From contig PLRS01000054.1 in assembly GCA_003164035.1 (NCBI GenBank), positions 62,001 to 126,000 on the forward strand: 64,000 nucleotides of DNA. The letters run 5' to 3'. The position numbers were made by a program, and so were the translations under genes. Each line of letters opens with the position of its first letter. The stretch's first letter is position 1. This document shows, one piece after another, positions 8,581 through 10,121 of the stretch. The notes under the pieces were generated by a model, which was not told where the DNA came from, did not search any database, and saw only the letters and a list, made by a program, of their open reading frames with translations. This DNA comes from Bryobacterales bacterium. GTDB lineage: Bacteria > Acidobacteriota > Terriglobia > Bryobacterales > Bryobacteraceae.

Positions 8581-9192
8581 TTAGGACGCGGTTCGCTGCC
8601 GTACCAGCGATAGAAATTCGTCGCGCGTTTCCTTGCGGTTGCGAAAAGCCCCCAGCATGGCGCTGGTGACCGCGCCGGAATGCTGTTTTTCCACTCCGCG
8701 CATCATCATGCAGAAGTGGCGGGCCTCGCAGATCACGCCTACTCCCATCGGGTCGATGGTCTGCTGGATAGTCTCCGCCACCTGCTGCGTGAGGCGCTCC
8801 TGAATCTGCAGCCGCCGCGCGAACGCGTCCACGATTCGCGGGATCTTGCTCAGCCCGATGACGCGGCGCTTCGGCAGATAGGCCACGTGGATCTTGCCGA
8901 AGAACGGCAGCATATGGTGCTCGCACATACTGAAAAACTCGATGTCCTTGACGATCACCATCTCGTCGTACTTCACTTCGAAAAGCGCGCCGTTGACGAT
9001 CTTCCCGATATCGGTCCGGTAACCGCTGGTCAAAAATCGCAGGGCCTTTTCCACCCGCTGCGGGGTCTGCCGCAGTCCCTCCCGGCCGGGGTCCTCGCCC
9101 AGTCCCTTGAGCAGTTGTTCCACCAGCGGAGCCAGGCATTCGGACGAAGCGCCCGCGGGCGGCATCTTCAGCACTGCCTTACGAGATTTCAT
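8581..9192 (-). CDS. folE: GTP cyclohydrolase I
   Basis: Converts GTP to 7,8-dihydroneopterin triphosphate, the first step of folate and biopterin synthesis. The Zn ligands are visible in [11 protein letters not shown] (Cys, then His three residues on) and in [11 protein letters not shown] (second Cys). The family blocks [17 protein letters not shown] and [12 protein letters not shown] are present, and the length (203 aa) is normal. I chose ATG 9192 over the one two codons upstream because GAGGT is 8 nt away. The start lies inside the end of the upstream PTPS gene, so the three pterin genes are one overlapping operon read on the minus strand. Confidence 0.95.
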
Positions 9193-9613
9193 CGGCATTT
9201 ACCTCAAAGATGTTGCGGTCTGTTTCCGCGATGCGGATTTTTTCCAGCTTCGGCCAGGCGCCCGGAAACGCTTCTCCCCAATGGGTCTTCAGGCGGCGGC
9301 AAATCTCCACTGCCACGTTCTCGGAAGTAGCCGGCAAATCCTGGAACCGCTCGATCTCGCTCGACAGGTCGCGGTGGTCGAACGCCGCGATCACCTGCCG
9401 ATTCACCAGCGCGTCCAGCACCGCCGGATTCACCGCCGTGCCGGTGACGTCGTCGGCCGGCCCGCGGGCGCTCACCTCCACCACGTAGTTATGGCCGTGG
9501 CCGAACGGGTTGTTGCATTTCCCGTACAGGCGGCGATTCTCCTCGGCGCTCAGCGAAAGTGCGTGCAGCCGGTGCGACGCCGAAAACCGGTAGCGGCGGG
9601 TCAGGCGGAACAT
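9179..9613 (-). CDS. 6-pyruvoyl-tetrahydropterin synthase homologue (Cys-containing)
   Basis: 144 aa, PTPS/QueD family. The Zn ligands are H14, H39 and H41 (SASHRLH, GHGHNY). The catalytic Cys33 is present in [10 protein letters not shown], a context very close to animal PTPS. The acid-base residues D79-H80 (AFDHRDL) and E130 (ETDRN) are also present, so this copy should be catalytically complete. It may turn dihydroneopterin triphosphate into 6-pyruvoyl-tetrahydropterin, or into 6-carboxy-tetrahydropterin as QueD does. No queC or queE is nearby, which favours a pterin role, but this is inference. The gene overlaps both neighbours (13 bp with the second PTPS gene and 14 bp with folE). Confidence 0.9.
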
Positions 9614-10032
9614 GTTTCCGCCGCCTCCCCGAAATAATCCACGAACAAATCCGGGGTTTCGTACACCCGCACCGCGTGAAGGCGCATGCCGCCGCGGGCC
9701 ACGTGCGGCTCCAGCCGCCGCCAGATGTCGCGCGCGATATTTTCCGTGGTAGGCACGATGCGGTCGAACGGCGTCACTTCGTAGTTCAGAAAACGATGGT
9801 CGTACGGGTTCACTACTTCGCGCTCCAGAATCGCCTTCAGCTCTTTCAAATCCAAAACCATGCCGGTCACCGGATGGGGCTCACCCGAAAGCGTGACTTC
9901 AAGCACGTAATTGTGCCCGTGGCCGCGCGGATTGGCTCCGGCCCCATACTGGCGCAGGTTTTCCTCCTCGGAGAGCTGGGGGCTGCGGCATACGTGAGAG
10001 GCGGAGAATTCGGCTTTACGGGTGATCAACAT
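9601..10032 (-). CDS. Second PTPS homologue lacking the catalytic cysteine
   Basis: 143 aa from the ATG at 10032 (MLITRKAEFSASH), which matches the family N terminus; a start 14 codons upstream adds an unrelated leader. The Zn ligands H13, H38 and H40 are kept (SASHVC, GHGHNY), as are D78-H79 and E125 (YETPDL). The residue equivalent to the catalytic Cys is Gly32: the motif reads GAGANPRGHGH instead of GKCNNP. The usual PTPS or QueD reaction therefore looks impaired or altered. The gene leads the operon and overlaps the complete paralogue by 13 bp, which suggests co-translation and possibly a mixed oligomer. Known Cys-less PTPS-III enzymes use a Glu; I see none at this position. Confidence 0.88.
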   Translation of the reverse strand: MLITRKAEFSASHVCRSPQLSEEENLRQYGAGANPRGHGHNYVLEVTLSGEPHPVTGMVLDLKELKAILEREVVNPYDHRFLNYEVTPFDRIVPTTENIARDIWRRLEPHVARGGMRLHAVRVYETPDLFVDYFGEAAETCSA

Positions 10033-10121
10033 ACGACCAGTCTTAGATTCGCGGGGACATCCGCGGGATTCCATTCCAATGGTAACGCACCCGGCCGTTT
10101 CGGCCGTGCGAGACTGAGGGT

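Follow-up and report, generated by a model that had tools for sequence, protein, structure and literature searches.

Why would an operon keep, beside a complete PTPS gene, a second PTPS gene that lacks the catalytic cysteine, and what could such a copy contribute? The question arises from a minus-strand run of three overlapping genes in the stretch of DNA analysed here (64,000 nucleotides, called the window), which belongs to a genome of about 8.0 Mb. The upstream PTPS gene (positions 9601 to 10032, read from 10032 to 9601; termed the donor) overlaps by 13 nt (9601-9613) the downstream PTPS gene (9179 to 9613, read from 9613 to 9179; termed the acceptor). The latter overlaps by 20 nt the third gene, folE (8581 to 9198, read from 9198 to 8581), which encodes GTP cyclohydrolase I and is the sole PF01227 match found in the genome. 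This is the arrangement described by the initial annotation, two PTPS genes that overlap each other and lead into folE. The upstream ORF is taken to start at MLITRK, the longest ATG frame opening at 10074. Against the Pfam PTPS family PF01242 (curated cut-off 22.4), the upstream ORF, scored from 10074, reached 122 bits and the downstream ORF 88.6 bits. The nearest named loci are from Acidobacteriota, with titles of Bryobacterales, Bryobacteraceae, Solibacteraceae or a higher rank only.

Both copies were numbered by alignment to rat PTPS, for which Zn ligands His23/48/50 and Cys42 are among the published residues; residue n of the upstream copy corresponds to rat n+10 until a late two-residue gap. 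At the position of rat Cys42 the upstream copy carries Gly32 (codon 9937-9939, minus strand) within the motif YGAGANPRGHGHNY. It retains His13/38/40, Asp78-His79 (codons 9796-9801, minus strand; rat Asp88-His89) and the two pterin-binding residues Glu97 and Glu125. The two residue claims made from the window alone, a Gly in place of the catalytic Cys and a full set of Zn ligands with the Asp-His pair, are thus confirmed by the alignment. The downstream copy possesses Cys33 (9515-9517, minus strand), Zn ligands His14/39/41, Glu98, Glu130 and Asp79-His80 (9374-9379, minus strand), the last being a position that decays in relatives. The Cys of the PTPS-II motif CxxxxxHGH is therefore absent from the upstream copy alone and present in the downstream one, and the Glu of the PTPS-III motif ExxHGH is absent from both. 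The AF2 model of the upstream copy (pLDDT 93.1) has rat PTPS 1gtq as its nearest fold, with a TM of 0.91, and that of the downstream copy (pLDDT 96.7) is nearest to human and rat PTPS, with a TM of 0.88.

The loss of the Cys is shared by the whole group of the window. The side-by-side pair was found in 37 of 41 close relatives (the downstream copy of G020 was matched only in part). The Cys was absent from the upstream copy in all 37 pair-carrying genomes of the window's order and in 93/93 distinct pairs of the window's group. This recurrence rules out a single-strain error as the source of Gly32, a doubt raised by the initial annotation together with its proposal to look for the motif beside complete PTPS genes. 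Among 102 distinct upstream copies, 94 are devoid of Cys, and none of the eight Cys-keepers is titled Bryobacterales. The residues found at this position are Ala 46, Glu 21, Gly 8, Cys 8, Asp 7, Ser 6, Asn 5 and Thr 1 in the 102 copies, and Ala 45, Glu 21, Gly 8, Asp 7, Ser 6, Asn 5 and Thr 1 in the upstream copies of the 93 window-group pairs. The earlier statement that the Glu of PTPS-III is not seen holds for the window copy and fails for its relatives, since Glu occupies the Cys position in 21/102 upstream copies; this Glu, however, sits in the Cys register and not in the ExxHGH register of PTPS-III.

In the same 93 pairs, every upstream copy has Asp78 and His79, and no downstream copy deviates at Cys33, at the Zn histidines or at either Glu. 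Of these downstream copies, 65 have retained the Asp, 74 the His and 57 both. When the 135 columns are ranked by entropy, that of the Cys comes 109th upstream and 5th downstream, and those of Asp and His come 14th and 15th upstream, 69th and 53rd downstream. The upstream copy is on average the more conserved (mean column entropy 1.12 bits versus 1.62). The tandem gene order was identical in 96/96 loci, drawn from the close relatives and the best 80 of at least 558 named loci, and the two genes overlap in 74 of these 96, by 4 nt in 50 of the 74. At 77 of the best 80 of at least 558 named loci a folE-like ORF cluster accompanies the pair; besides folE, no pterin gene was recognised by eye among the conserved neighbour clusters of these best 80 loci.

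The Cys-less upstream copies of the window's group share a different cysteine, Cys15 (codon 9988-9990, minus strand; rat position 25). It is present in 92 of the 94 distinct Cys32-less upstream copies of the group, the exceptions being L061 (Thr) and L227 (Leu). All eight Cys32-keeping upstream copies have Tyr and none has Cys at this place, where the downstream copies of the pairs carry Leu, once Met, and never Cys. Cys15 lies two residues after the Zn ligand His13, and strand geometry would allow the two side chains to point in the same direction. The distribution of Cys15 and this geometry favour the idea that the upstream copy is an enzyme in its own right, in which Cys15 would replace Cys32 and work with the copy's own Asp-His pair. 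We nevertheless judge a relocated catalytic Cys, the foremost rival of the heteromer described below, unlikely: the two exceptions do without it, the Cys-less donors outside the group (six fusions, five unlinked pairs and L211, see below) have Tyr or Leu there, and the idea leaves the loss of Asp-His in the partner, the fusions and the Lys/acid swap unexplained. A Cys elsewhere in the Gly copy, which the initial annotation had counted against its own proposal, is found in part, in this group and not at the corresponding place in similar donors of other families. Cys15 could serve as a relocated base or as a Zn ligand that closes a dead site, or it could be an accommodating change.

To follow both active-site halves, the pairs of the 41 close relatives were pooled with the best 80 of at least 558 loci of the named-genome scan and with a search of 297 Acidobacteriota genomes using the upstream profile. 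In this search 86 genomes matched at E 1e-20, and loci were read from 68 of the 86, the 18 weak single matches (16 of family f25) being left out. Duplicates of the window locus (L002, L003) were dropped, identical sequences were collapsed (110 to 100 upstream, 109 to 99 downstream), and a common-core comparison removed seven duplicates to give 145 distinct pairs, many of which are related, so that their counts are not independent. L040 (X at key columns), L046 (truncated), the G104 pair (L188) and the lone G237 copy (L217) are not part of the pair tables.

The losses in the two members are complementary. A Cys-less donor is combined with a complete acceptor in 57/145 distinct pairs and with an acceptor without intact Asp-His in 48/145; both members are complete in 29/145, and a complete donor accompanies an acceptor without intact Asp-His in 11/145. 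The acceptor Cys is present in 145/145 pairs, and no pair (0/145) lacks the Cys twice or the Asp-His twice. Counted by chain, the 290 members comprise 105 with Asp-His and no Cys, 126 with both, 59 with Cys and no intact Asp-His, and none without both. Loss of Asp-His was found in 0/105 Cys-less donors and in 48/105 of their acceptors. The active-site residues are hence divided between both paralogues in 48/145 pairs, six of them fused. In the window pair the loss is on the donor side only; its downstream Asp-His is present, a motif that is not intact in the acceptors of 59/145 distinct pairs. By family, 4/4 pairs of f19 are complete, 8/29 acceptors of f4 are without intact Asp-His and every f4 donor has the Cys, and in the window's group 93/93 donors are Cys-less with 36/93 acceptors without intact Asp-His. 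Seven pairs of the named scan have Cys-keeping donors (titled Acidoferrales, Acidiferrum, Acidiferrales, Terriglobus or a higher rank only), and their acceptor is without intact Asp-His in 3/7. Single-copy genomes, defined by one match at E 1e-20, which allows for a more divergent second copy, unite the Cys, Asp-His, Zn His and both Glu in one chain in 17/17 cases read.

The same division occurs in other gene arrangements. Six genomes (L178-L182 and L187; five of family f16 and one, L187, of f9) encode a Cys-less half and a Cys half as a one-ORF fusion. The N-terminal half keeps Asp-His and has lost the Cys as well as Glu125, which is replaced by Thr or Ala and falls in a gap in L187; the C-terminal half keeps the Cys and Glu with Asp-His not intact. 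Five genomes, from f36, f68 and f80, carry the two genes as an unlinked pair. Their donors have lost the Cys, Glu125 and Zn ligand His38 in 5/5 cases (two also His13), Asp-His being present in 5/5; their acceptors have the Cys, Zn and Glu residues in 5/5 and have lost the intact Asp-His in 5/5. Finally, the adjacent pair at L211:717-1798 (G196, family f55) has both halves divided and is perhaps a further independent split. The Cys-less member of L211 has lost a Zn ligand (Phe) and kept Asp-His; its partner has the Cys and lacks Asp-His.

A structural or regulatory pseudoenzyme, that is a Cys-less copy which merely stabilises or regulates the downstream enzyme, would be in keeping with the overlap of the genes and with the disappearance of the catalytic Cys without a fixed substitute. 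Such a copy would be expected to lose its residues together, contrary to the distribution of Asp-His loss among the Cys-less chains and their partners. Furthermore, the unlinked donors have kept Asp-His though a Zn ligand and a Glu are gone, and the upstream copy is the more conserved of the two. We find this explanation quite improbable for the pairs. It is a fitting description, as is another subfamily, for the second copy of G104, which is without both halves (L188:2771-3274) and accompanies one complete copy. The lone copy of G237 (L217:849-1283) is also without Cys and Asp-His. The motifs of these doubly lacking copies are FGEYYSIYPHGH in L188 and FGPYAQSHRH in L217. Both copies are divergent and belong possibly to other subfamilies, and they argue against a universal rule.

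The initial annotation had suggested that the Cys-less copy could be a structural subunit of a mixed hexamer. Comparison across the phylum strongly supports the mixed partner, and speaks against a merely structural role: the Cys-less copy looks like a donor of Asp-His. The PTPS triad is presumably distributed over two subunits, Cys A42 coming from one and Asp B88 and His B89 from its neighbour. According to PMC7546909, PTPS assembles as a dimer of trimers and has six Zn sites, each between neighbouring monomers, and the title of Burgisser et al. (1995) names an 'intersubunit catalytic triad motif'. Since the published triad is intersubunit, the pattern is best read as a heteromeric PTPS whose active site is divided, with composite sites that would be formed by the products of the two neighbouring genes; on comparative sequence grounds we hold this to be probable. 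The two genes would then encode two subunit kinds of one PTPS-II-type enzyme, the downstream subunit giving the Zn site, the catalytic Cys and the Glu that anchors the pterin, and the upstream Cys-less subunit giving the Asp-His pair across the subunit interface. A mixed unit would contain live sites, made of acceptor Cys and donor Asp-His, and opposite sites, inactive or open to decay, so that selection would maintain only one half per gene. The meeting of two subunit kinds predicts the pattern seen, including the absence of any pair chain without both halves, and the 1:1 fusions suggest equal subunit numbers. The substrate would be the 7,8-dihydroneopterin triphosphate made by the neighbouring FolE and the product 6-pyruvoyl-tetrahydropterin.

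Several observations weigh against the heteromer. Among the 105 pairs with a Cys-less donor, 57 have a complete acceptor, and the acceptor in the window, which still has Asp-His, could work alone; the window pair is an intermediate stage. Donors of the tandem lines retain Zn ligands and Glu, beyond what a donor of Asp-His needs. The conserved Cys15 hints at another role in the window's group, and it is mainly for this reason that our confidence in the heteromer is not higher.

A charge swap also distinguishes the two members. Lys66 of the window donor (codon 9835-9837, minus strand) is aligned opposite Asp67 of the acceptor (9413-9415, minus strand). This position is Lys in 17/17 single-copy chains. 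A donor Lys is combined with an acceptor Asp or Glu in 138/145 distinct pairs, and the five unlinked pairs show the reverse (donor Asp, acceptor Lys), so that Lys in one member is matched by Asp/Glu in its partner in 143/145 pairs; the remaining two, L187 and L211, carry Asp twice. The swap is present in the f19 pairs with complete active sites and so seems older than the catalytic losses. We infer that it may mark a contact between the subunits.

The folate side of the pathway bears on the possibility that the genes encode two separate homo-oligomeric enzymes with new pterin reactions, for example a Cys-less copy acting like dihydroneopterin aldolase. No FolB match was found in the window's genome, which would be in line with such a role, as would the Glu at the Cys position of 21/102 copies. 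The genome has a third PTPS (C148; L001:1495-1869) with the motif CENVHGH, and CExxHGH is a PTPS-I/III hybrid type according to PMC5041015. We read 21 of 23 third copies. Among f1 genomes without a full FolB match, CExxHGH is found in 17/18, the exception being G011 (L133), which has a third PTPS without Glu and no FolB; G014, one of these 18, has a sub-threshold FolB match. The Glu is absent from the third copies of the f1 genomes with FolB (3/3). The pair is present without a full FolB match in 19 of the 22 f1 genomes that carry it, and alongside FolB in 14/14 f3 genomes, none of which has a third PTPS match. Replacement of FolB was rejected as the main role of the Gly copy: the pair occurs with or without FolB, and the CExxHGH third PTPS tracks FolB absence. 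On the same grounds the pair seems free of folate duty.

Separate enzymes would find a better case in G025 and G016, which have the pair and neither FolB nor a third PTPS found (assemblies 81% and 62% complete), and in G011. Overall, however, the freedom of the residue that replaces Cys, the coexistence of the pair with FolB and the behaviour of the third copies make two independent enzymes very unlikely. The earlier proposal of a different pyruvoyl- or formate-type reaction by the Cys-less copy gained no support, because the replacing residue varies and because the third PTPS (CExxHGH) or FolB seems to fill the folate job in most relatives. Supply of a phenylalanine hydroxylase cofactor was likewise rejected as the role of the pair, the aromatic hydroxylase PF00351 being found in just 9/41 relatives and not in the window's own genome. 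Pterin carbinolamine dehydratase (PF01329) is present in 40/41 relatives, the window's own genome included. Given this near-universal PF01329 against the rare PF00351, there may be an unrecognised tetrahydropterin user.

Arranged by their residues, the Acidobacteriota copies may represent a living series from homo-oligomer to obligate heteromer, an ordering that we favour with some reserve. It would lead from complete single copies to tandem intact pairs with the Lys/acid swap (f19), to acceptors without Asp-His beside donors with Cys (f4 and relatives), to donors without Cys (window's group), and to full division, either fused (f16) or unlinked (f36, f68, f80), at least two of these having arisen independently. 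On a tree of 149 rows (148 hand-chosen domain rows and the third PTPS, the L188 second copy and L217 left out), whose resolution is poor and in which L187 and L211 sit on long branches, the minimum number of changes is 5 for Cys and 18 for Asp-His; the rows without intact Asp-His are all acceptors.

How does the pair compare with known systems? It resembles PTPS-II (rat 1gtq/1b66, human 3i2b) in the fold of both copies, the Zn His triad and Asp-His, the CxxxxxHGH spacing of the acceptor, and the Thr-Glu plus Glu pterin site; the triad of PTPS-II is described as intersubunit, in a homo-hexamer. PTPS-II, however, is built of six identical subunits with all residues, whereas here the residues are shared between two genes. 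According to PMC5372742, the bimodular QueF of E. coli and V. cholerae is a tunnelling-fold enzyme with two domains of weak homology, one carrying the QueF motif and one the catalytic Cys/Glu, which come together in a single interdomain site. QueF is, however, another enzyme with another reaction and a single polypeptide; the PTPS pair is mostly two overlapping genes, with fusions in f16 and f9. PTPS-III (Plasmodium; bacterial ExxHGH/CExxHGH) belongs to the same family and has the Cys replaced or supplemented, as stated in PMC2229834 and PMC5041015. Its Glu, in a fixed register, provides new chemistry, whereas the position in the donors is unconstrained; the third PTPS of the window's own genome (L001) is a PTPS-I/III-type copy. 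PTPS-IV is a named COG0720 subgroup whose reported signature, FGPAQ, has no Cys, but it is reported beside FolE2, has another motif, and is given no complementary partner in the passages of PMC5445326 consulted. A literature search, whose scope left the main subfamily papers (PTPS-V/VI motifs) outside, found no report of a heteromeric PTPS.

If the divided site is real, PTPS would stand beside bimodular QueF among the tunnelling-fold enzymes whose active site is divided, with several stages kept in living relatives, and the origin of obligate heteromers by complementary degenerative mutations would become directly testable. For annotation, this would mean that a PTPS with a neighbouring partner is not necessarily a pseudogene when its Cys or His is missing, and that PTPS activity should be assigned to neither gene by itself. 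Independently, the pattern of third-PTPS Glu against FolB (L114-L133) offers a natural test of the PTPS-III assignment. Plasmid relatives of the pair amount to 119 records with a best identity below 60%; among the 25 matches listed, four are gene-named, all queD.
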